The position numbers and the translations under genes were made by a program. Positions 4,851-61,672 of a DNA stretch of 64,000 nucleotides are shown here, one piece after another; position 1 is the first letter of the stretch, and each line of letters starts with the position of its first letter. The DNA comes from Bryum argenteum (Eukaryota; Streptophyta; Bryopsida; Bryales; Bryaceae), in the NCBI GenBank assembly GCA_037043015.1, contig CM073324.1, positions 26,056,097 through 26,120,096 on the forward strand, in the 5' to 3' direction. The notes under the pieces are model-generated. The model saw only the letters and a list, made by a program, of their open reading frames with translations. It made no database searches and was not told where the DNA came from.

Positions 4851-7800
4851 TCACTTGCCAACGAAACTGGGTATAATCTTCTGTAATAAGTTGAAGCTTT
4901 CTTCTCCTTTGCTCACGTCCGTAGCGGATGCTTCAAAGAGCTCTTTCTCTAAAATGGAAACTGCATCTACAAAAGCCTGATTCAAACAACAAACAACGCT
5001 TAGAAGTGATTCAATGTCAAAGACTCGCACTTGGTTCTGGAAGTAATGAAAGCCAGCAGCACAAAGCGTCATGGAATACTACACTACAAAAGAGACATCA
5101 AGTCAAGGTCAGTTTCAAGCCATTGAACTCTGCTAACTTTGCATGAAACTGAAACATGACCCTTAGATAGCACATCGCATGAATACAACAATGTTACGTA
5201 ATGGACTCTCAAATATGAGCAAAACTACAGCCAAACGACATTCGTTGCTGTTCACTTTCCCACACTTGAAAGCCCATGACTTTCTAGACTAGTTTCCTTG
5301 CTGTACCTTAACAATCTGCTGAATGCGGAAACAGGTGCTCCCGACATTATTCTCAAAATCGAATGGGTCTTCAATATGTAAAGGATCAATACTGCAACAA
5401 GGTAAGCGGTCCCTGCTGTAAGTAACCTTCAGTGAACGTGCACCACATGTGCACACATACCACTCGTCACCATGAGTAATATTAAATTATCAAGAATTTA
5501 AAACTATGAATCATTATATCACCTCATGCATTCACGTAAGATGGCATATGTTATGTACTTCGTAGTAAGGTTATTAAACACAATTACGAAGTGTCCAGGT
5601 ACAAACCTGGGACCACGATCTCTGCTTACATACTGTCCTCCACTCCGAATACGGACGCACATGCTTCGAGGATCAAATACGTGCCTTGAATACCAAGCCA
5701 CTTATGCATGTTAAATATGTACTACATATTTCACGACAATGCTGTTCCAAAGTCTTCAAACGCCTGGTTGCAGAACACAAATCAAATCACTAATAACAGA
5801 GTGAAGGGCAGTGCAAAGCTTACCCAAAGAAATATAGGAAGTCCATAAGTAAGAGTCCAAGATTCTGTATCAAGAATCAACACGCATGGATTACAAAAGA
5901 ATGATCAGTACTGGATTATCAAACCTAGTCCTGATTCAAGAAAGTTAAGCAGAAAACGATGAAGTAACTAGGACGAGTAGGTGGCGATCCTGACGTCGAA
6001 CTTCCAGAAATATGCAATGACCCATGCTGTAGAATAAAGTACTAACCTCATTTGAAGAAGGTTGTCCAAGATGCTGTTGATGCTGGAGGTATCGTGTTAT
6101 CAGTAAGACCTGATGACATTGTTGAAAACTCCAGAAGAGTGAGGGAATAGAAAATGTATAAAAGAGGGGGGAAAAAGCAACCCTTAACATCATGTACTCA
6201 TAGGCTCTCATCTAAATTCCCGTAAGGACAAGCTAATCAGTATTGGTATTTATTTCGACTTCAGAGTGGACTTGGCATACATTGACACTAGACCTTTCGT
6301 TTTATCTAGTGCCAGAGCGCAAGTTCTGTGATGCTACGAACTTAGTATAAGATATACCGCTGAGATGCACCATGACACTTGAAGAAAGTTCCAACAAGTC
6401 TCGTTCTGGAGTACTTCCGCAATCCAAGTATTGAGTTAAATGAAAGTTTGTATCCAAAATCAACTATCATTTAGCTCGAACTATATATTACTAGCGAAGT
6501 TAGCGGGATAATAGGGGTCGCCAAGATGCTAAAGCAATAGGACGTACTAGACCGGATGCGAAGGAGAGGACATAATCAAAGAACTTGTAATATGCTAGGC
6601 CATCATTCAAAAGTGATTGATGTGAGAGCAGACCTGGCAGTAAGAACTAAGACCACCCTTGTTGGCATTGTCAAGGCTCCGGTCCGCAAGAAATTGCTTC
6701 AGAATTAATGCTAGGGGTGTCAAATGTGGAAATTGCCCCATCAGCTCGCGGACCTGATCACAGCGTCATTTTAAGTCAATTGGAGTACATAGTAATGAGT
6801 AACTGAATGACTTGATCCTACATATGCTGGACTGGATTCAATACAACAGTTTCACTGATGGCAAACAAAGATTGATCACACTGAAAAGTCAAGAAGTTAA
6901 GCGAAGGCCTGTGTTACCAATTCAGAAGTACGAAGGCCTGTGTTTGTAGGAGCTTCGAAACTAATATCAAGAAGTACTATCTGACGATCTTTTTCAGAAC
7001 CCCATGGACCCTCCTTCCCTGCAGAGTCTCCAGAGCATTGACTATTTGGTGAACCATCCAGTGCATCGCTGCTTGTACCCATAGGACATGTCTCTTTTAC
7101 GCTCAAAGATATGTCACCCAACTGGCACTGATGCGGTAATATGTGAGCTTTCAATCTTATGAGTGGCACCTGCAAAAACGTCAGCTGATATGTGAACAAA
7201 AAGACCGCACATCTGAGGAAAATAGCGAGATTATTAGACGTCTGTAAAGCAAAGGAAAGATTACAGACAAGAAGGGAGAAACCAGCTACAGAATCGGCAC
7301 GAGAGCTTCTTCCATGTGTTCATATCATGTACCATAGTGTGTTCGATAACTTGCAGGGACTTGACCCAATCCTGATCTTCAAGGTTGCGTGCAGCATGCT
7401 GTGATCGGACAACCACCAGTGTGAGTACAGACCCCCCTAACTACCGTAGCATCATGAGATCATTGGCTCAAAAATTCAGAGACGTCACCAGAACATAACA
7501 AACATAAAAGGATCATCCACTGCTTCGCAAGGCACTAACCAGCAAGCAAGTGTCCTTAACACCATCAATTCGCCCTTCCAATATTCCAGCTTGTTTAATT
7601 GGTTCCCGCGCCTATGAAATAGAAGATCCATACAACAACCGCACAATTCAGTACCCAGGTGTATGTCACTGCCCGGTCCTACTCAAATCTATGATGTTTA
7701 GTCAGACAAATGAATCTGACCGTCGTAGCAAAATTAATGATGGGATGCTTCACCGCATGACTGTCGAACGCACCTTTCTAACAGGAGGTAAGCTAACGAC

Positions 7801-10800
7801 AAGATCAACATCGCTTGTTGGGAGAGCTAAACCGGTAGAATTTGAACCAAATATCTTTGCCCGCGATCTTGGCCACAGGACTTGTAGGGAATGTGCCACT
7901 TTCTTCACTGCTGTATTAATAAAGGGCATTCGCAATCTCTTCTCTGCAGCAACCTGGAGTGAAAATAGTACCTCTTTGTCAGGCAATAAGAACTCTATGA
8001 TAAAGATAAGGTGAATGATGGTTTCGGAGAACCATTGAGAACTGTTGATACCTGCATCAAGTTCTAAATACACAACTAGCCCTATTAAAGGTCCTTAGTC
8101 CAGAAAGAACAAAGCTCATTCTTGGAAAGACTGAGTCGCGCACCTGTACACAAAACGTTTCAATCTCCTTATGAAGAGCTGTATAAAAAAGCGTGATAGC
8201 AAGATGGAGCGTAGGATTATTACTATATAGTGCACTGCTCCGCATTATCAGGGCTTCGTCAGCCTGCACATCCAAGAGAAATGTCGCGTGATGAGCTCAA
8301 ACTTACAGATGTGCCATTTCTTTCAACGATCACACAGCAAGATTTTGAGCAAAAGAAAGAACCAGCAGCAGAACACTGAAGACGCTACGATCACTGAAGG
8401 GTCCTTAAAGGCACATGCAGAGTAAAAGCAGCGATCAGAGGGCCAGAGCGTAACATGACAAGAAGCAGATGGAGGTCTAAAATGCATGTGTACCATGTGC
8501 TCCTGATCCAAGGTCAATGGGGGCATAGCTATCAAATGCTCCCTCCGTACAGCTCCCGAAAGGGGGCGAATTGGTGGGGTGCTTGCTAATACAGGCTTTC
8601 TTCTTCCATTTCCCACAACAGTATCCCTGTTCACTGCTTGCACGTCGAAGTTGTCCACGTCATCCTTGTTCCACCAACTCGTAAGACCCCAGTGGCGGGG
8701 GCTTGAGCTCCCAGACCTGGCAGACATCCACCCCTTCCTACGCTTGGACCCAGCAACTGGAGAAGGTGGAGGTGGAGGTGGTGCATGACGAATGACAGGG
8801 GGAGAGGGCCGGCGCCGTCTGCTCCCTGAAAAGTCTTGCACTTCCCGAGATGTGATGTGAGGACTACGTGCTTCCCGTAGGCGCACAAAGTCATTTTTCA
8901 CCATGGGCCTAGATAAGCCAGGATCTCTCACCACCACAATAGGACGTAACCTTGGCATAAATCCATCACTCATGATGCCATCTACTACTCCCACTGGGTT
9001 CCCCACATTTGGCCCGGGTGCTTGAGAATCATCGGATATAGACCCATAATTAACTGCAAAATCGCTTCCTGCAGATCTAGTCAAGCCTACACGAGGACCA
9101 ACTTGGCTAGACCCTACCTGATCAAAGGCTACTGGAAGGGAGGTAGAAGGTTGAGAAGGAGAAGTATTAGAAAGATTGGAAGCCGTTGACCCTTTGCCTC
9201 TGTAGGGACCTTGGAGTGCATGAATGCCTACTATATCATCAAGAACAGCACCAAGGTCCGCCTCCCTACGAGCCCATGAGCTATCATCTGAACTCATTGA
9301 ACCTGGTCGAGAATAACCCATGCCTGTGTAGTCCGCTGAGTTCCAGTACATCACGCCACCACCAAATACCTGATGGTAGTCTTCAGCTTTTACATACGCG
9401 TTGTCCTCCATTTGCCGTTCCCCTTCTTCTTCAGAAACCACATACCCATCGAAGTCTTCAAATTCGCCTGCATAAGGTTCAAAGATTTCAAGGTCTGTGT
9501 CGTACAAGCGCTCCTCAACCTCAGTTTCATCCCCTATTCTTATTTGTCCGTTTGGTGGGGTTCTTGATGCATATAGTGAGGATGTAAATGGTGAGAGGGT
9601 AACAACTTTAGGGTCATTTGAGGCAGAGTACCCAACCACTGGAGGAAGGCAGTACCCATTGTGAACAAATGGGGGCCAATCAAGGCATCCAGGGGCAGGG
9701 GTGGAATTGGAAATAGACACCGGAGAGGCACTCAAACGCTTGGGCAAGTCATGAACGCCATCCAAGTGAAGTCGGTCTAAAGCTGTCGGACGCACGTTAT
9801 TGCCTGATACCTGGACTTGCGAATAGCCCGGCCATTCATGAGAATAAAACATAGCAAAGGCAGGCACATGTTGAGATCGTAGTGACCCACCCTTTATGTT
9901 ATGAACAAGGACAGGTTCTTCCGTAAAATACGCTGGTGTATGACGTGACATGAACAGCTTCCCTGCAGATCAGCAGGAAGCAGACATTAGTGACATCATT
10001 GACAAGGTTACTCTTGCACGCCAATTTGCGGATCGTGATCACTTTCTCAAAACAACTTGGTGAAACAAGTTAACAGAACTGAACAGTAACAGAAAACGCA
10101 GAGTTAAATTGTTGGGTGTGGAGATGCAAAATACCTGGGGTACAAGCCCCTGCGGGTAAGCTTTGTGACCGAAGCCCAGACCGCCGGGTACTGCGGTTAT
10201 GCACTGGCTCTGAAGTCGCTCCAGTGTCACCAGCAAGCCCAACCTCCTGCGCTTCAATTCTCATACCATTAAAGGCATTTGTTTTGTGGCCATTTTCTGA
10301 AGCTGCTTTGTTAAGCACTTGCAGATCAGGTACTGTCCGTTGAAGAGCCGAGGCATTCCATGTGTTCGAGGACTTTGCATTCAGGGAAACCTGTACGTCA
10401 GACGCAATGACATCTATAGTTCCAAAACGAAGCTGTAACGCCTTGTGCTCCATGCTTTGTGATTCAAGACCACACTTTCTTGCATCATCCGCCGGCTTTT
10501 CGATAGACTCCTCAATGTCCTGTTCGCCTACCGAAACGTCGAACGCCTCAGATGAACCGACAGTGGGCTCCTCCCCAACTGGTGACAGTACGCGGGTTTT
10601 GACTTCATCGGATTGCCTTAAATGGCCATTTCGATCAGGAAATTTTGGTTTCTCTACAGCATCGAATAACCCCAAAGAATTTGAGATTATTGGTCCATGA
10701 GGTTTATCGTCAGCATCAGAAACAAGTCCATCTCCACAAAGGTCAGTGTTAACCTCAGAGGGTACCTCAACAGTGCTAGGAATAGGTGAATTGGTATTAG

Positions 10801-17067: not shown

Positions 17068-17332
17068 TTAACCCCTAAACGACCCTAGTAATGAATAACG
17101 ACATTTTGGAAAAAAGGCATAAACTATGAAGAGCCATGAACTTCATCTGTACTTTGTCACAAACAAAATTACTTGGAGTGGGTCACAAATCAAATCTTGT
17201 TTGTGTGATAAAAACTGTAAACCCGTAAAGTTAAGTTTGAATAAGTGGCATGCATTTTAGTGAAGGCAGCTTTTAGTTTTGGGTTTTCAAACACTACGCA
17301 TGTTTTACCATTACAAGCAAATTATCTAAAAC

Positions 17333-24119: not shown

Positions 24120-25055
24120 TTGACCCCTACAAATCCAAGTGTTTCCTCGACCTCCAAAACCAAAAACTGCTATTTTTCACCTCCGTTGGGAAATGGGGAA
24201 ATAAAGAAACTTTTTTTTTTGGTTTTAGACTTCGAAATGTAAGATCTTGTATCTCACCTGAACAAATAGGATCAGTCAAAATTTCAACTGTTGTATGTTT
24301 GTTATTTGAGATCGTAACGATCAAAGTTTGTCCAACACTTTTTTTTACCGTTGTCCGAGAGGCATTGTCTAAATGGTGCCAAGGGCAACTTCATGATTGT
24401 TACTCCAAACATTTCCGCCTCATTTTTTTCCATTTAGGTAATCAAGTTGGGTACGCCCATACAAAATTTTAGAGAATCATTCCACGTTTTTGACCTTTTA
24501 TGTAAATTATTTTATGAAAAAAGGTCTAAAAACAACAATATAGTAAAACAAGCACCACATATGATATATTTAGTTCAAAAAAAATTTGGACGGTGAGAAG
24601 GTGCCTTTATGAGTATGTGAATTTAAAAGAAAAGAAATTATTGGAAAAGATCCAAAATCCCAAATTTTGGCAATTTTTGAAAAAAAATTGTAAAATTATT
24701 ATAAATTGTGAAGATTGTTTTTGAAAGTCTGGAGGCCGTCCTTGTAAAATTGGTAAATTTTTTGACCTCGGTCACTTTAGAATTAGAATAGTAATTTGGT
24801 AATGAACATATTTCCAAAAAAGACTACTTCAAAAAATCTAAATCTCAACTGCTTGTTTTCGACTTGAAACCTAACATTTCTAAATGAAGGTTTTAAAATT
24901 AAAATTTGGCTTCGCAAAATTTACCACATACACATTGCAGAGTGGGGAGCACTCCATAAATATCTTAGGCAAAAATATCAATTTTAACCCTATTAAATGA
25001 GCTATCCAAAATCTAAAAAAACCAAATTAGTTTTCCTGGATTTTTAGGGGTTAAC
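24120..25055 (-). mobile_element. TTAA-ended element, family D (about 930 bp), copy 1
   Basis: The ends are TTGACCCCTACAAATCC and GGATTTTTAGGGGTTAA, matching as inverted repeats at 15 of 17 positions. The body matches 51.4-52.6 kb (opposite orientation), 56.1-56.9 kb and 63.6-64.0 kb. It has no coding capacity beyond short AT-rich frames. Confidence 0.65.
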
Positions 25056-26822: not shown

Positions 26823-27090
26823 GTAACCCCTAAAGATCCAAGAAAGCGGAAATCGCTTTTGGGAATTTCCGCAGGGAGGAAATTCAGCAAACTTTGACCA
26901 TTATAATCTCAAAATTGGAGAAAAATTAACGGTTCAAATTTGACATTCGAGAAAAGGGTCAAGTTACCTTCAAGATCCTACGGTTGGATCTTCTAATCAA
27001 TGCTTAGATTGAGTTTCTTTGCACCTGAAGCAGAATAAGGTTCTCTTTGATAATTTAAACAATTTTGTATCAAGGACCTTCAGGGGTTAA
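26823..27090 (+). mobile_element. TTAA-ended MITE, family A, 268 bp
   Basis: It runs from GTAACCCCTAAAGATCC to GGACCTTCAGGGGTTAA and aligns along its length with copies at 39532-39799 and 51464-51731, which have the same length. Shared internal marks are GACCATTATAATCTCAAAA and TCCTACGGTTGGATCTTCT. One end carries GTAA instead of TTAA. It is non-coding. Confidence 0.85.
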
Positions 27091-28874: not shown

Positions 28875-29143
28875 TTAACCGCTAACTCTCCTTAAAACCT
28901 GAAACAAGATTTTGGAGGTTCCCGTAGGAGAAAAACTCAGCCAACTTTGACCATTATAATCTCACAAATGAGAAAGAATGAACGGTTCAAATTTGGTATG
29001 TGAGGAAAATGTTAAGTGAACTTTGAAATCTTACGGTTGAATATTCTAAATAAGGCTTAGATTGAGACTTTTTGAGCTTAATCTGAAGGGAGGTCAAGTT
29101 TTATGACTTAGACCGTTTTGCAACAAGGAGAGTTTGGGGTTAA
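28875..29143 (+). mobile_element. TTAA-ended MITE, diverged family A copy, 269 bp
   Basis: The body aligns with the family A MITE (GACCATTATAATCTCA and TTACGGTTGAATATTCT are recognisable). The ends read TTAACCGCTAACTCTCC and GGAGAGTTTGGGGTTAA. They differ from the main family but still match each other at 15 of 17 positions, which suggests a separate subfamily. Confidence 0.75.
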
Positions 29144-30016: not shown

Positions 30017-30327
30017 TGTTAGAGATTAGGTTGCTCGTAGTTTATAAGAGCAACTAATAGGTTTTAGAGTATGTTAGAGTAAGTAATAGAGGCTAGGTCT
30101 TAGTCCTCTAGGGTGTTTGAAGAGGGCTGGTCCTAAAAGCCTTAGAGAGACAAGAGAGGACTTAGCCTCTCGGTTATCCCATATTGTTTGTAGCACCATG
30201 TGCCTACCTATGGATACATAAGCAAGGGCTTCGAATGAGTATGTATCTCATTCAAGCATTCATTGCTCTACCTTGTGTGTAAGCTTTGATGTTTGTATTC
30301 TCTCTCACCCTCTATTGAACTTCAATA
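30017..30327 (+). repeat. 5' LTR of the copia element
   Basis: It starts TGTTAGAGATTAGG and ends CTTCAATA. The boundary set by the target duplication gives TG...TA ends rather than the usual TG...CA. A TATA-like TTTATAAGAG lies near the start. Confidence 0.93.
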
Positions 30328-30341
30328 GGTTATGGGCCCAC
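30328..30341 (+). promoter_or_regulatory. Primer-binding site matching the anticodon region of initiator tRNA-Met
   Basis: GGTTATGGGCCCAC directly abuts the LTR. It is complementary to GUGGGCCCAUAACC, which spans the CAU anticodon of plant initiator tRNA-Met, recalled from general knowledge. This matches the half-tRNA priming known for Drosophila copia. It does not match the tRNA 3' end (TGGTATCAGAGC) used by most plant copia elements. Confidence 0.8.
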
Positions 30342-30354
30342 TACTCTTGTGGTG

Positions 30355-31437
30355 AGGTTGAGTTTGAATACATTTGGAGGCTTGGAGAGGTCAAGGAGGT
30401 GTTGCACACACTTAGAGGGCTGATTTGCACTTCTTGGAGCTTTGGAGGTGTTTGCAACCATTTGGAGGTGTTTGGAGGTGATTTGAGGCATTTGGAGGCA
30501 ATTGGAGCATTTTGGAGGTGTTTGGAGGTCTCTTGAAGGCATTGGAGGATTGTGAGCTTCCCTTGTCTTGGTTAGAGTGTTTCTAACACAAGAAGGTGCT
30601 GATTTGCATTGATGGCTATCAAATCCTTTTGTTGAGAGTGGTTTTGAGCTTAGGAGTGTTCTTTGTGATCTACTTGAGTGCACTTGCGGAATTGAGGGCT
30701 GAATCTAGCTTTTAGGGTGCATGTGTGCACACAAGGGGCTGATTTGAGCATTTGTGGTGCATGTGTGCACACAAGGGGCTGATTTGAGCATTTGTGGTGC
30801 AAGAGAGGTGTCTTGAGGCTCCTAAGTTGAGATTTGAGTGATTTGAGGTTCATGAAGCTTATTTGACATTGATTGAGGGCTGATCTAGTGTAGGGATTGC
30901 ACAAGTGCTCATTTGAAAGCATTGTGGCTTGATTTGAGTGCTTAGAGGTGCAAATTGACCTTGTGTGTGTAGTAGACATCTATATCTAGTATTTGGAGGT
31001 CAAATAGCTTGAGTTTGATCCAATTTGAGTGGGAGCGAGTGGATCTTGCTTGTTTGAGTGTAAGAGCAAGTGGATCTTGCTTCTTTGAGTAATTTGTTGA
31101 TCTAGAAGCTTCTTTGACATAGATTGAGGGCTGATCTAGTGTAGGGAGTGCACAAGTGCTCATTTGGAGGCATTGAGGGCTGATTTGAGTGCTTTGAGGT
31201 GCATATACACCTTGTGGGTGTGGGGGAAGCCTAGATCTAGCATTTGGAGGTCAAAGAGCTTGAGTGTGATCTGATTTAAGTGGGAGCAAGTGGATCTTGC
31301 TTTTTTGAGTGTTGGAGTGGCTTATTGTGCATTGTTGTGTGCACAAGTGTGTTTGCACACTCCTAAGGGGCTGATTTGAGTGTTTAGGTGGTAGATTTGG
31401 GTTGTTGGTGTTGTAAGGGCAGCGCTTGTGTTTAGCC
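30355..31437 (+). repeat. Repetitive non-coding leader of the copia element
   Basis: The 1.1-kb leader between primer site and gag consists of degenerate repeats around GGGCTGATTTGAG and TTTGGAGG. It includes a 40-bp tandem duplication (units at 30721 and 30761) and a larger duplication of about 251 bp (30871 and 31122). Such a long repetitive leader is unusual for copia elements and may hold packaging signals. That role is inference. Confidence 0.8.
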
Positions 31438-33427
31438 ATGGCTTCTTTTGAGGTTGAGAGTGTAAGGGTGCTTGAAAAGTTCAATGGCAACAACTTCCAC
31501 CTTTGGAAGTTTAAGATGAACTTGGCGCTCTCCGGGATGGACTTGTGGGAGATTGTTGAAGCCACGGAGGAGGCACCACCATCTCATGCAAGTGACAAGG
31601 ACAAGAAGGAGTACCAAAGGAGGGTGAGGAAGGCCATGTCCACGATTGGGCTCAATTTGGTGGATGCCCAACTTGCTCACATCAAGAGTTGCAAAGGACC
31701 AGTGAAGCATGGAGGGTACTTTGCAACATCCATGAGACAAGAAGCTTGGCCAACATCCTCTTCTTGAGGCGCAAGTTCTTCACAATCAAGATGGAGGAAG
31801 GGGTGACTTGTTGGAGCACATCAACAACATCAAGGCACTTGCGGATCAACTTGCTTGCTTGGATGTGCCCATGAAGGAGGAGGATATTGTTATGACCTTG
31901 CTCGATAGTCTCCCATCTTCATTTGAGCAGACTGATAACGGCTTTAGAGACCTTGACCCTTCTTGACCTTAAGATGGAGTTTGTGGTGTCAAGGTTGATA
32001 CATGAAGTGTCCAAGAGGAAGGAGAGGGGTGCTCAAAGTGGTGAAGAAGCGTTGGTGGCGGCTCAAAACAAAGGGAGGATGAAAATGGGCCAAGGTTGTC
32101 TTCAATTGTGGCAAACCGGGCCACATTGCAAGTATTGCTTCCAAGACAAGAAGGAGAAAGAGAGTGCCAATGTTGCAAGAAACAAAGACAATGAGGAGGA
32201 GTATCGTTTTTGTAAGCGCCCGTTGTTGCAAAGAAAGAGGAGATGTGGGAAGAGCATGCCTTTGCAAATGGAGATGGAGATGACAACACCATTGACAAGT
32301 GGATCATGGATTCGGGAGCCACCAAGCACATGTCACCTCATAGGGCAAAGATTTCAAACATATGAGGTAATATCACCACCACGAAATGTGCACTTGGGGA
32401 GATGGTAGTATTGTGCATGCGGTCGGAGTTGGCACTATTGTTGAGGAGGTGAAGGTGATGGGAGTAAAGACAAAATCAACATAAAGGAGGTTCTCCACAT
32501 CCCAAAGTTAAAGAGAAATTTGTTATCCATAGCAAAGCTTGCTTTCTTAATGGCTTAAAGGTGGAGTTTGATGATGATGCATGCATTGTGAGAATGCAAA
32601 TAGGAAGGTGATTGCTAGATTGCCAAGAGAAGGGAGTTTGTATCAAATGCCCTTCTCTATGTATGATATGGCCAATGTGGCACACCAAATGCCACAATCA
32701 GTAGCCTTTGGAGCTAAGCCATAGGCGCCTTGGGCATTTGAATGTGAAGAATTTGAAGGTCCTTCAAAGGATGGTAAATGGCATGCAAATCAAGAATAGT
32801 ACATCAAATTCAGCGGCTCGTGATGTGGTGATTGCGGAGGAGGCCACTTGTCGAGATGCGAATGTGGAGATGCATCCAAGTGGGAGTTTGGAGCCACTAT
32901 GGTGATTGGGGTGGATGCAACTCCAATTTCAGGCGTGCGTTGTCAAGAGAGGCTCAAGTTGGAGAAAAGCCTAAAGGAGTGCAAGAGCCGAAAGAGACAG
33001 AAGGGAGGATGTGGAGGTTGAATCACATGAGGAAGATTGAAGAGGCGGCGTCATACAAGGCCCATGGTATCCAATAAGGGAGAGGTGGTCACTTGGTGAG
33101 TGGTGGTTAAACCATATTCTTCCACCATCTATTGAGGTTGAACGTGCAAATCTTATTTGTTTTTGATGATACTTTGAGTTTGGGTGATGCTTTGCAAAGT
33201 GTGCATGCAAGCAAGTGGGAGTTGACCAAACAAGACAAATAGACATCTAGTATGGCCAATGGCACATGGGAATTGGCTTTGTTGCCAAATGCAAGCAGGA
33301 AAGTTAGAAGATGGAGAGGAGAGCTTGAGGTATTAGCAAATGGAGGACATAGTGGGAAATATGTGGACCAAGGCGTTTGTCAAGGTGAGGCACAAGGAGA
33401 TGGGATTGCGAGGAGAATACTACTCGC
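31438..33427 (+). pseudogene. Decayed copia gag-pol with internal deletions
   Basis: The gag starts MASFEVESVRVLEKFNGNNF and keeps a UBN2-type gag segment, but a frame change follows near 31690-31750. Further on are a damaged zinc knuckle (FNCGKPGHIAS, about 32100), the aspartic protease motif DSGATKHMS (from about 32309), KRNLLSIAKL and the pre-integrase motif HRRLGHLNVKNLKVLQ (about 32715). The reverse transcriptase survives only as its first residues (HASKWEL...MANGTWELALLP, about 33200-33290). A short C-terminal remnant leads into the polypurine tract. Several stops and frameshifts rule out function. Confidence 0.9.
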
Positions 33428-33437
33428 AAAGTGGGAG
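33428..33437 (+). promoter_or_regulatory. Polypurine tract of the copia element
   Basis: AAAGTGGGAG lies directly before the 3' LTR and would prime plus-strand synthesis. It closely resembles plant copia polypurine tracts. Confidence 0.8.
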
Positions 33438-33748
33438 TGTTAGAGATTAGGTTGCTCGTAGTTTATAAGAGCAACTAATAGGTTTTAGAGTATGTTAGAG
33501 TAAGTAATAGAGGCTAGGTCTTAGTCCTCTAGGGTGTTTGAAGAGGGCTGGTCCTAAAAGCCTTAGAGAGACAAGAGAGGACTTAGCCTCTCGGTTATCC
33601 CATATTGTTTGTAGCACCATGTGCCTACCTATGGATACATAAGCAAGGGCTTCGAATGAGTATGTATCTCATTCAAGCATTCATTGCTCTACCTTGTGTG
33701 TAAGCTTTGATGTTTGTATTCTCTCTCATCCTCTATTGAGCTTCAATA
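33438..33748 (+). repeat. 3' LTR of the copia element
   Basis: It is identical to the 5' LTR except for two transitions near its end (CACCC to CATCC and GAAC to GAGC). It is followed by TTATC, the second copy of the target duplication. Confidence 0.94.
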
Positions 33749-39531: not shown

Positions 39532-39799
39532 TTAACCCCTAAAAATCCAAGAAAGCCGAAATGGCTTTTTGGAATTTCCGCAGGGAAAATTTCAGCCAAC
39601 TTTTGACCATTATAATCTCAAAATTGGAGAAAAATTAACGTTTCAAATTTGTTACTAGAGTAAAGGGTCAAGTGAGGTTCAAGATCCTACGGTTGGATCT
39701 TCTAATTAATGCTTAGATTGAGTTTCTTTGGGCTTGAAGTAGAAGAAGGTTCTTTTTGATGATTTAGACAATTTTGTATCAAGGATCTTTAAGGGTTAA
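39532..39799 (+). mobile_element. TTAA-ended MITE, family A, 268 bp
   Basis: It runs from TTAACCCCTAAAAATCC to GGATCTTTAAGGGTTAA with the standard family A interior, including GACCATTATAATCTCAAAA. Its length equals two other copies exactly. Confidence 0.88.
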
Positions 39800-41561: not shown

Positions 41562-43084
41562 ATCCCTTCATTTTTGTTCTACGGAGGGAATGGTGTTAGG
41601 ATGATCAAAGTGTGCACGATTACCTTCACGCTAAGGAAATTTTTCTTCCCGATGTAAGGGTCGAAGTTTGCTAAACGCGAGGGAAAAGAATACAAGAGTA
41701 CCTCAAATTACCAAACTTGATTTTTATAGAAGATGTTTCTCATGATTTGATTGCCACGATATATGAACAAAGGTAAAATTTGAATCTACATAAGAATTTG
41801 GTACTTTTGTGGGTTTTAGTTTAGAACTTACGAAGCACTGAAATTCAAAGATGTGCGTATTTTGGGTATGTTAAGACATTAGGTGAAGGTTATCCCTTTT
41901 AGAGAATACGATGGTCTTTTGGTATAGAGTGGTTGGCTTCATTATGCACATTTGGAATGTAGTTCATAGTTGGTTTGCATAACATGAAAACTTGATATGC
42001 CGTGTTTTCTTTATTTGCGTTTTTAGTTGTTGAAATGGAATTCAGAAATGTGAAAATTGCTCTAAGATGGCTAAAAGTCAAAAGACTAAAAACCACACTA
42101 TTGTCACACATTATTCTTGCACATGGATACACTTATTGTACATAAAGGACTTACAAGTATTTTAACCCTTAAAGGTCTGAACAACCATATTTTGGTTGCC
42201 AGAATACAGCGTATTTTGTTTGTATTGGAATGAGTGCACACCTTTAATAGATTTGAGTTCAAGAACAAGTTGACATATAAATCCATGCGGTTCTACTAAG
42301 CTTTTAAGATCTCAATATAGAGTTTCTTGTTGGTAGCAAATCTCAATTATACGCCACCGTACATACTATCCCCAAGGGACCTTTAAGGTTTAAGTACTTT
42401 GGTTCACCCCACATGTCGTGCATTAGTTGGCGTTTTTGTGATTCTAGTGTGTATGGATTGGTTAGTTAAGGTATTGGGATGTGATCCTCATATTACACAA
42501 TCTCGCGGACATGCGGTCTCCTCTATAATTACAATCTATATTTTAGTACAGTGTTTTACTTATTTTGTAGGAGTCTAAAATATTTTCACGCATAAAGAGT
42601 AAAAAAGAAAATAAATATAGAGCTCAGTACTTTTATCTTGTAAAATGAGAGTTGTATTTTCTTTTGCATAACATTCCAATGGTTGAGTTCACCCATCATT
42701 AGTTCTAATTACTACTGATATTTGACTCCACTTCCAATGCTTTTGTTCTCATAGAAGCCATGTTTGGAGAGTAGCATAAAAGACGTTCTAACACGTTCTA
42801 GCTACAATGGGAGTTTTAAAAGCTATATTTCAACAAAAATATGTTAAAACGTAGTTTGAGCTACTCCCCAAACGTAACTTATATAAAACACATACATAGA
42901 AAATGGGGTCAAATTCATGTAGTGAATCACTATCCTTATGAACATCTCAAGTTGTAAAACTAGAAGCATTAATTTTCATTTTAAAAGTTATATATGTTTT
43001 ACTTACCAGATTCAACATGGTTTATGTGGTAGACCATTATAGGCTCCCTAAGCCTCAACAAAGTTACTACACAAGAGTCGTTAA
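41562..43084. other. AT-rich intergenic DNA, no gene seen
   Basis: No conserved coding sequence or strong repeat was recognised. Confidence 0.4.
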
Positions 43085-43486: not shown

Positions 43487-43905
43487 TCAACCTCTATAAA
43501 ATAGTTGTACCAAGTATCAAAATATGCCAACAAAATGTTGTACCAATCAATTGTGAACCTCTGTAAAATACTTTTACCAAACTTTGTTAACTTGGTTAAC
43601 TGTCAACCGTTACAAAATACTCATACCGGAATCTCACAACTTGATCAAGTGTCAATATTTATAATATCTATACCAAAATCTCCCAACTTGATCAACTGTC
43701 AACCTTTAAAATACTCATACCAGTCTCCCCCAACTCAATCAACCGTCAACTTCTGAAATACTCATACTACAATCGCCCAACTCCATCAATTGTCAACCTC
43801 TAGAATACTCATACCATAATCTCCCAACTTGATCAACTATCGACCTCTAAAATATTCTTACAAGAATCTTTCAACCCGATCAATTGTTAATCTCTAAAAA
43901 ACTCT
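43487..43905. repeat. Degenerate minisatellite, unit about 45-50 bp, eight or nine copies
   Basis: Successive blocks resemble a unit that runs CTCATACCAAAATCTCC, then CAACTTGATCAACTG, then TCAACCTCTAAAATA. The copies are diverged. The array creates a spurious plus-strand frame at 43505-43756. Confidence 0.8.
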
Positions 43906-44300
43906 AAGATTCAAATCCCTTAGCGGGATCCGTGACATACTTAGAAACATAATAGAAATACATTGCATTAAAATTGCTACTTACACTTCATAAGGCCAAT
44001 GTCACTACGTTCTTATGCATTGTTGATGTTGAAAGGGTACACAATCTCGTGTGGCATATGTTTTTTTGATAGACTTGGTCCAATCGTTACAAATTCCTAC
44101 AAAACATTGTATGGATGATGGGAGACTAATCAAAACTGGAGCGGTACCAATAGTGGAGCACTAGGCTTCTTCACGGGGAGGTACGCAATAACTTCTTCAC
44201 TCAACATTAGCACGTTACACGCGACAGAAATTATAGGGTGCAGAATTAGGGCACCATTTTAGAAACGCCTACAAGACCACCTTGAAAAACTCACAGCAAG

Positions 44301-50156: not shown

Positions 50157-51406
50157 ATCCCGGGCTTAATCAACGGCCTTGAGTGACCTTTTAACTGTTG
50201 AGGTTACAAATACAGAAACTTCTGGCAGTATCTTTTCTGAGGAATTCTTTCAGATCCGTGATGGCTATCAATTCTACTCATGCGAGGGGAACGGGCCGTT
50301 GAGTCTGCTGATTGATAAACTTCTGCTTCTATGGGGTACTGTTGTTTCTTGAGACTTCTTTAGTACTAGTGCAATGTACATGTTAATATTTACTCTAAGA
50401 GCGTTAGACTTGGAATGGAATGATTTTGTAGGATACGGTGTAAAGATTGAATCAATCCGCAAGTGTTGGTAGACGAACAGTGTCGATAGGCACCACGACG
50501 GGTAGTACTAAGCTGTTTCCAATACGGGTCGTTCTAAGCTCCCGGGTTGTTGGACACTTTTGTATCAGTGGTATCGTACTAAGCTCCCGGGGAGATGGAC
50601 ACTTTTGTATTAGTGGTAGGAGGTTAAGTCAACTTTAAGATCCTATAGTTGGAATTTCTAAATAATACTCAATCTGAATTTTATCGGTCCTGAAGTATGA
50701 AGTATAAGGTTCTGTTGATAAATTCTCGAGGAATTAAGATAGTAGTATCGAACCTTATAATTGGACAAGTAACCAAGTCGATTGATTCACATTTCTGTCT
50801 ATCTGGTATCAACAAATACAAAACTTCTAGATTATTTTACTACAGACTGTTATAGTTTCCACAATGTTCATACATGCGGTCTAAGCCTACATACCCGAAT
50901 CCCCAAAATCTACGTCAATAGTTCATTTTGGTCAAATTATTCATGTATCAAACAATTGTTGTGTAATCAGAGGCAAAACTTACCACTGTGATGTGGTAAT
51001 ACAGAAGAGGAATATAGTCCGGTACTGTACTTCGTAATATTATATTAAAGACCTTCAAAAACAGACCGTTTTATTGATCTAAACAGTGACCTTTGAATTT
51101 TAAAAAAAGTCACAAGGAAATTCAAGCTTGTTTGCTACCTTCCCTCCACAATCATTGAAGCCCGTTGGGCGGTTGGCATCGGCAATTTATGGAAATGCCA
51201 CAGTTAATGCAGGGTACTAGGTTTGAAATAGAATCGATTTTGCGGGTATTTTTGGACTTCCCTTTCCAATGGTCTTATGAATTGTAAAATTAAAATGGCT
51301 GTAATGTGTTCTATAGTTCTGGACAAATGTATGGATCATCAAAGTCATAGTCGTGGACGATGGTTTCAAATTTGAAAATTGAGTTGCGATATATTTAATG
51401 AGGTTT
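50157..51406. other. Intergenic DNA with short duplications
   Basis: GGACACTTTTGTAT recurs near 50550 and 50598, with AAGCTCCCGGG also repeated nearby, as a small tandem duplication. A fragment similar to the middle of the family A MITE lies at about 50625-50735. No gene is seen. Confidence 0.45.
50625..50735 (+). repeat. Fragment of family A MITE
   Basis: GTCAACTTTAAGATCCTATAG and TTCTAAATAATACTCAATCTG follow the order of the central part of the 268-bp MITE, including GGTCCTGAAGTA. The TTAA ends are missing. Confidence 0.5.
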
Positions 51407-51407
51407 A

Positions 51408-52597
51408 ACCCCTAAACTACGAAGGCCTCCGATTAGGAGATTTGCGATTTCGGGCAGTTTAAGTTAACCCCTAAAGATCCTTGATACAAAATTGTCTAAA
51501 TTATCACAAAGGACCCTCTTCTACTTCAGGCCCGAAAAAACTCAATCTAATCATTAATTAGAAGATCCAACCGTAGGATCTTGAAGTGAACTTGACCCTA
51601 TACTCATATGTCAAATTTGAACCGTTAATTTTTTTCCGATTTTGAGATTATAATGGTCAAAGTTGACTGACTTTTTTTCCTGCGGAAACCCCAAAAAGCC
51701 ATTTCGGCTTTCTTGGATCTTTAGGGGTTAAGATGTTAAAAGTAATATTTTTGCCTAAAATTTTTAGTGGATGTTCCCTATATTACAAGGTGTATGTGGG
51801 AAAATTTGCAAAGTCAAACTCCACCTATGGAGTTCTCAAACGCAAATTTTAGTTTTCAGCCTTAGGGCGGGCAGAAAAAAACTTTTTATTTTTACCTTTT
51901 TTTTGAATTTTTTTAAAAAAAAAATCTTTTCTTGATTGATTTTGTACTAAGATTTCCAAGTGACCCAAGTTGAAACTTTTACCAATCCTACAAGGGCACC
52001 CTTCAAAAATTACAAGAGCTAGATTCAAAGTTTTCTTTGATATTTCCATTTTTTGTTTCAAAATTTGCCAAAATTTGAGATTTTGGAATTTTTGGAATTT
52101 CTTTTTTCTCAAAATTCACAAACTCAAGAAGGTATATACTCACCGTTCATTTTTCCCCTAAACCATATACAATAAATGTGGTGCATGTTTTACCAAATCC
52201 TTGATTTCTACCTTGTAGTAAATAAATTGCATGAAGGTTCAAAAAGCAAAATGAGTGTCTAAAATTTTGCATGGGCATGCCCAACTTAGTTATATACATG
52301 GAAAAGAATATGAGCTAGATGTTTAAGCTAATAAGCATCACGTTTTCCTTTGCACAAAGTCGACTATGTTTGCTAGAAAAAAAACTGCATCGACTTTGAA
52401 TGTTATGGTCTTACAAATGGCTACAATCCAACAGTTGAAATTTCAGCAACTACCACTAATAATAGTTCTCTTCAAGATCATACGGTTGAAAGTTTCAAAA
52501 AAGTGTAAAAAATATTCTCACTCCAAAGTTTACAAGGTGGTATGGAATTGTAATTTTGGAGTTTGGAGCTCACAAAACACCATGGTAGTTTAGGGGT
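51408..52597 (+). mobile_element. TTAA-ended element, family D, copy 2, with nested MITE
   Basis: TTAACCCCTAAACTAC at the left and GTAGTTTAGGGGTTAA at the right are exact reverse complements. The family A MITE at 51464-51731 sits inside. Without it the element is about 920 bp, in line with the 936-bp copy at 24120-25055. The body is AT-rich and non-coding. Confidence 0.75.
51464..51731 (-). mobile_element. TTAA-ended MITE, family A, 268 bp, perfect ends, nested
   Basis: TTAACCCCTAAAGATCC (51464-51480) and GGATCTTTAGGGGTTAA (51715-51731) are perfect 17-bp inverted repeats. The interior is the reverse complement of the 39532-39799 copy. It is inserted in the left part of a family D element. 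Confidence 0.92.
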
Positions 52598-52626
52598 TAA
52601 TCATTGTGTGTGTGTGCTCAGTCCTT

Positions 52627-61435: not shown

Positions 61436-61672
61436 TTAACCCCTAAAGATCCAAGAAAGCCGAAATGGATTTCCTCAGGGAATCAAGTCAGCCAACTTTG
61501 ATCATTATAATCTCAAAATCGGAGAACAATTAACGGTTCAAATTCAGCATACGAGTACATGGTCAAGTTAACTTCAAGATCCTACAGTTGGATCTTCTAA
61601 TGAATGCTTAGATTGAGTGTTTTCAGGCATGAAGTAGAAGACAATTTTGTATCAAGGATCTTTCCGGGTTAA
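61436..61672 (+). mobile_element. TTAA-ended MITE, family A, 237 bp with internal deletions
   Basis: It runs from TTAACCCCTAAAGATCC to GGATCTTTCCGGGTTAA. It lacks short segments present in the 268-bp copies, around the CGCAGG block and before the right end. Confidence 0.85.

Follow-up and report, generated by a model that had tools for sequence, protein, structure and literature searches.

PiggyBac transposons are best known, and chiefly described, from animals. The closest described relatives of the repeats analysed here are T. ni piggyBac (PDB 6x67) and piggyBat (9c0f), with which the moss elements share the duplication of a TTAA target, ends that start with CCC, a DDD transposase domain (PF13843) and a C-terminal Cys-rich segment. 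They are unlike T. ni piggyBac in being 5.7-6.5 kb long, as against the 2,472 bp given for the T. ni element in the source extract available, in the long N-terminal part that precedes the domain (an open frame of ~370 aa in L064), and in combining a predicted small first intron and a conserved upstream frame with a plant host. The coral CMITEs, as described in the accessible part of PMC2872659, resemble the moss MITE in being short and uniform in length, with a TTAA duplication and piggyBac-like ends. However, those elements measure ~100 bp rather than 268 bp, whereas the moss MITE matches both ends of transposase-bearing elements, and its exact end recurs at no fewer than 1,746 genomic places.

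For plants, the superfamily has been named in several sources. Available extracts list 1,230 PiggyBac fragments in the C-fern repeat annotation (PMC6890710), place PiggyBac among the MITE superfamilies of angiosperms (PMC10004981), name it among plant superfamilies (PMC10794571), and table it with the superfamilies present in all groups studied (PMC4438587). The C-fern and angiosperm entries share the superfamily name with the elements described here, and in those extracts amount to no more than a row in a table or a name, with no element, ends or transposase described. The word piggyBac is absent from the main text of a review, published in 2022, on the transposable elements of land plants (PMC9033089), and PMC10619864 was rejected as a source on plant piggyBac, the word there being piggybacking. 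Among the matches listed by full-text literature searches, none described a piggyBac family from a moss. So piggyBac in plants has been named in print, with no detailed case among the literature matches listed; the kind of element is known, and it is the host and the scale that are unusual.

The window, meaning the whole 64,000-nucleotide stretch of Bryum argenteum DNA that was analysed, contains all five repeats that the original prediction had located. The copy of principal interest (51464..51731, forward strand) is a piggyBac MITE of 268 bp, with TTAA at 51464-51467 and 51728-51731 as its target site duplication. Its left terminal inverted repeat of 13 bp, CCCCTAAAGATCC (51468..51480, forward strand), is perfectly matched by that on the right (51715..51727, reverse strand). 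In the accessible part of PMC2872659, the terminal inverted repeats of the piggyBac superfamily start CC[CT]T; the MITE ends conform to this, starting CCCC, that is with a fourth C ahead of the T. Two further copies, both on the reverse strand, also have the predicted length of 268 bp: one at 39532..39799, with TTAA on each side, and one at 26823..27090. A reverse-strand copy of 237 bp (61436..61672) has internal deletions and TTAA on each side. The fifth repeat (28875..29143, reverse strand) is 269 bp long, and its end bases are CCGCTAACTCTCC / CCCCAAACTCTCC. We call it, on sequence, a sister family rather than a member of the same MITE family, because these end bases differ, and because it is only 69-73% identical to the other four, which are 85-90% identical among themselves. 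Hence the expectation that all five copies carry the same type of inverted end held for four of them, and that of flanking TTAA held for the most part, failing at 26823..27090, which has GTAA on the left and TTAA on the right.

The 17-bp end of the MITE, TTAACCCCTAAAGATCC, was found nine times in the window when up to two mismatches were allowed, against a mean of 0.02 in shuffled sequence, with none of 100 shuffles reaching nine. Eight of these are both ends of four copies, and the ninth is a lone end on the reverse strand (25038..25054), with one mismatch and without an assigned partner end. A lone end of related type, TTAACCCCTAAACGACC, lies on the forward strand at 17068..17084, and a possible degenerate relative of 232 bp, with three mismatches to the MITE end at each of its own ends and no strand assigned, is a weak candidate at 42162..42393. 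Across the genome searched (258.8 Mb in 25 contigs), the exact 17-bp end occurs at 1,746 places, 859 forward and 887 reverse, while its reversed-sequence control occurs at none. Using a 268-bp copy as the query returned 2,323 genomic candidates, and all of the best 40, which were scored, were 98-100% identical. MITE ends and piggyBac transposases are present on all eleven chromosome-size contigs (C1-C11). Identical 13-bp arms were identified by script in 26 of the 30 best copies; the script misread L032, the printed arms of which are identical. L022 apparently includes two adjoining TTAACCCCTAAA-type elements, with a single TTAA common to both.

As TTAA is palindromic, insertions at TTAA sites are by themselves equally compatible with a duplication of TTAA, a duplication of TA, and an inverted repeat that extends further. 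BLAST was used to extract the 30 best copies: TTAA stands on both sides of 28 of them, TTAT on both sides of one, and the last has TTAT/TTAA (L037); an 8-bp direct duplication was found in none of the 30. The version of the end preceded by ATAA, VTAACCCCTAAAGATCC, occurs at 100 places, compared with 1,746 for TTAA, and the first 20 of these ATAA-left places in listing order were examined. In 14 of these the far end was located by script: 13 read ATAA..ATAA, and the other, L079, has ATAA on the assumption of a single missing G. A common flank unites nine of the 13, or ten of the 20 places when the truncated L067 is included, and these were counted as one insertion, whereas L071, L072, L073, L078 and L079 are separate insertions. 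By eye, the far end is ATAA in L081 and TTAA in L074, and no far end is visible in L067, L070, L076 and L085. Hence seven of the eight separate, readable ATAA insertions have ATAA in direct orientation at both ends, the exception being L074 (ATAA/TTAA). For the insertion with the shared flank, the genome contains three unoccupied sites that match it exactly, each with a single ATAA. The ten places of this insertion (L066-L069, L075, L077, L080, L082-L084) have the same ten flanking bases, which suggests that the MITE was carried along in the copying of a host repeat.

The target duplication is therefore 4 bp and direct, because copies flanked by ATAA/ATAA and TTAT/TTAT are impossible with a TA or TWA duplication, or with an inverted repeat that contains TTAA. 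This answers the original prediction's concern that the TTAA might belong to the inverted repeat. Its proposed refutation, unoccupied sites revealing a duplication of TA or of 8-9 bp, did not materialise, as these sites have the single 4-bp target that piggyBac predicts. As ATAA is duplicated intact, it appears to be a real secondary target. Among 20 stretches with CTAA or GTAA on the left, the far end was TTAA in seven, CTAA/CTAA was seen in one, and GTAA/TTAG in two that share a flank, while three were unclear and seven had no far end. We read the CTAA/GTAA-left copies as probably being mostly mutated TTAA sites. The copies counted against the family reading are these CTAA/GTAA insertions, mostly without a duplicated 4-mer, together with L074 and L037 and the two of 20 transposase flanks, described below, in which no end was found.

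A profile search of the genome for the piggyBac transposase (PF13843) returned 776 candidates, and all 116 that were scored exceeded the curated cut-off, with a best E value of 7e-82. There were no matches in 14 control genomes, which are non-plant as far as is known, and hence constitute a check on specificity only. The full-length elements anticipated by the original prediction, with these ends and a DDD piggyBac transposase, were thus found, and both ends were determined for five of them (L051, L052, L063, L064 and L065). L063 (6,461 bp) and L064 (6,399 bp) are the only ones of these five with the exact 17-bp MITE end on both sides, and on sequence are autonomous-type partners with the MITE's ends that encode a predicted PF13843 transposase. 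L065 (5,934 bp) has the exact end at one terminus, and differs from it by a single change at the opposite terminus. L051 and L052 occupy two places and share 99.8% identity across 5.7 kb; L051 has TTAACCCCTAAAGGCCC at both ends within TTAA flanks, and L052 has an ATAA flank on each side.

The open frame of the L064 transposase spans 867 aa from stop to stop and includes PF13843 at 369-755; it matches both 6x67 (E 1.4e-28) and 9c0f (E 3.8e-28) in the PDB. The DDD catalytic triad of piggyBac is named in the accessible part of PMC10140906, and D509, D604 and D722 of L064 align with the catalytic D268, D346 and D447 of T. ni piggyBac, in a chain numbering counted by hand in the alignment. The L063 frame is interrupted, with an extra internal stretch relative to L064. 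A Cys-rich motif of the form CxxC..CxxC..C..H was found in the transposase frame of L040, L042, L043 and L044, and in another frame of L051 and L063, among 13 loci scanned; it was not found in the other seven. The C-terminal Cys-rich domain of the piggyBac superfamily hence appears to be present. Twenty further transposase 3' flanks were chosen from the PF13843 matches ending at profile position 347. An end of TTTAGGGG type, with up to two substitutions, was found in 18 of these 20, followed by TTAA in 16, CTAG in one and TTAT in one, and was not found in two; the exact TTTAGGGG-NTAN end was found in 16 of the 20. The same scan found it in none of the 20 on the other strand, in two of 20 as the reversed sequence, and in a mean of 1.04 across 50 shuffles, the largest value being four. 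Separately, TTAACCCC near 2828 in L039 and L040 was rejected as an element end, as homology between the copies continues past it.

The MITE itself has observable homology to both ends of these larger elements. Its positions 1-215 (51464..51678, forward strand) match the 3' end, on the side of the transposase stop, with 65% identity to 5934-5706 of L065, and 68-71% identity to L063, L064 and L051, mainly over positions 98-215 or 105-215. Positions 223-268 (51686..51731, forward strand) match the 5' terminal 46 bp, and are 85% identical to positions 46-1 of L063 and L064. The 586-bp variant L049 and a larger element within the window (51405-52600) are built in the same way from both ends, with longer pieces kept. 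Hence the MITE looks like an internal-deletion derivative, retaining ~215 bp from the transposase-stop end and ~46 bp from the other. L063 and L064 are, by sequence identity, relatives of the parent of the MITE rather than the parent itself, because L063-L065 are only 65-85% identical to it outside the 17-bp end.

It is almost certain that the repeats form a family of non-autonomous piggyBac MITEs, derived by internal deletion of a ~6-kb element and presumably mobilised in trans, and this assignment is upheld by both the partner transposases and the 4-bp target. Tourist (PIF/Harbinger) MITEs, with a 3-bp TWA duplication, are common in plants, and would be the usual plant reading of an MITE flanked by TTA; with four bases duplicated rather than three, and PF13843 in the partners found, a Tourist-like origin is exceedingly improbable. 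The same is true of a Stowaway-like (Tc1/mariner) element with a preference for TTAA, a 2-bp TA duplication and an end starting ACCCC. Palindromic TTAA targets would suit this equally well, and it also fits L074, L037 and most of the CTAA/GTAA copies, but the seven separate ATAA..ATAA insertions, and the single TTAT..TTAT copy, duplicate the outer bases too, and elements with the same end encode a piggyBac transposase. Kolobok and Sola3 are other superfamilies that produce TTAA duplications. That one of these drives the family is very unlikely, if marginally less so, as the transposase elements with such ends carry PF13843, although these were found by the PF13843 search itself. Contamination of the assembly by animal or oomycete contigs might be suspected from piggyBac having been described chiefly in animals. 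Yet we give this almost no credence, given the presence of ends and transposases on all of C1-C11, a plant-type triosephosphate isomerase in the window, and an assembly that includes a plastid contig with a moss-like PsaB. This contig (C12, 114.6 kb) has adjacent PsaA/PsaB-family genes, and the best PDB matches of its PsaB frame, at 1,700-1,704 bits, are 8htu, 6l35 and 7ksq, which we take to be Physcomitrium patens structures; 9lut scored 1,664 bits, and the others among the best 60 of 84 matches scored at most 1,634.

The piggyBac reading leaves a choice as to which transposase is responsible, and there is an even prospect that the MITE was mobilised by a subfamily other than that of L063 and L064. 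This would accommodate the limited identity between the MITE and L063-L065 outside the 17-bp end, and the best-scoring match to the MITE among 22 transposase 3' flanks being L103, at 72% over 133 bp. Furthermore, both ends are known for five elements, and the 3' end for 18 more, of the 116 listed and 776 candidates. However, the exact 17-bp end is on both sides only of L063 and L064 among the elements with both ends determined, and piggyBac transposases may act on related ends.

Under the favoured piggyBac reading, a parent element of ~6 kb would have lost its interior, leaving the two end pieces as the MITE; full-length elements of this genome would supply the piggyBac transposases that move it in trans. 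Insertion is mainly at TTAA, with ATAA less frequent and other variants rare, and the 4 bp are duplicated. By analogy with T. ni piggyBac, as described in the available part of PMC7351741, the transposase would introduce a nick at the CCC end, a 4-nt TTAA hairpin would form on excision, and the excised element would insert into TTAA to generate the 4-bp duplication, such that the chemistry is modelled on that system, and the result of insertion is observed in the moss. By the same analogy, excision would be seamless, the unoccupied sites bearing only on what insertion adds.

The copy at 51464-51731 is nested within a larger non-autonomous piggyBac-type element with TTAACCCCTAAACTAC ends (51405..52600, forward strand), a second element of the same kind that was absent from the original prediction. 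It is 932 bp long without the insert, when one TTAA is kept, and its ends match transposase-bearing elements at 61-69%. When its flanks are joined over a single TTAA, the resulting sequence can be aligned to six relatives, two 580-bp elements and four transposase-bearing elements, with no gap at the join. These are relatives of the empty site rather than the empty site itself, because they come from four subfamilies, and none of the six has TTAA at the junction.

The full elements may encode more than a transposase. The L064 transposase gene has a predicted short first exon, MPPRKPWKRGKQ, with similar exons in L051 and L065, and a small GT..AG intron is predicted from sequence at the same place in all three. 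Directly upstream of the transposase is a conserved frame, at 6753-7886 on the reverse strand of L064, with a core at 6810-7088, and with equivalents in L063, L065 and L051. In L064 and L051 the two overlap at the transposase start; in L065 the upstream frame stops shortly ahead of it. Three subfamilies share 49-64% identity with one another across the core, which is 93 aa long in L064. Differences in the core at codon positions 1, 2 and 3 number 42, 23 and 51 of 93 codons between L064 and L065, 26, 19 and 47 of 83 between L064 and L051, and 26, 20 and 42 of 83 between L065 and L051; in these raw counts, third positions differ more often than first or second positions in each pair. The frame has no Pfam family at the cut-off and no PDB match up to an E value of 1. 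We tentatively suggest, as a possibility short of likelihood, that a plant-specific piggyBac clade might be a two-gene system, with a second conserved protein encoded upstream, and that it might have driven the amplification of the moss MITE at TTAA and ATAA targets.

The MITE end also includes CCCTAAA, the plant telomere word, which is best read as a coincidence, as the original prediction had allowed. A telomeric derivation was rejected because CCCCTAAA (TTTAGGGG in the other direction), with TTAA or a variant, is a common end of this transposon clade, in 16 of the 20 additional 3' flanks of transposases. For T. ni piggyBac, an oligonucleotide in the accessible part of PMC7351741 gives the end as CCCTAGAAAGATA.

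One plant genome thus holds both halves of the system, elements with an open-frame transposase and an abundant MITE with identical ends. Such a genome is well suited to studying how piggyBac arrived and multiplied among mosses, and might provide transposons of plant origin that excise seamlessly.

The window has other features besides these. An uninterrupted (intronless) frame at 937-1707 encodes a plant-type triosephosphate isomerase (PF00121), the best PDB match of which is the chloroplastic 4ohq (424 bits), which we take to be the Arabidopsis enzyme; the chloroplast enzyme 9qm7, presumably algal, scored 317 bits. An LTR element at 30017-33748 (the end being approximate), judged Copia-like by eye, has 302-bp LTRs with one mismatch seen between them, a gag-like frame (MASFEVESVRVLEKFNGNNFHLWKFKMNLALSG), and TTATC on each side. 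Finally, a tandem array with a 47-bp period, the shifted copies of which are 60-76% alike, occupies 43615-43943.
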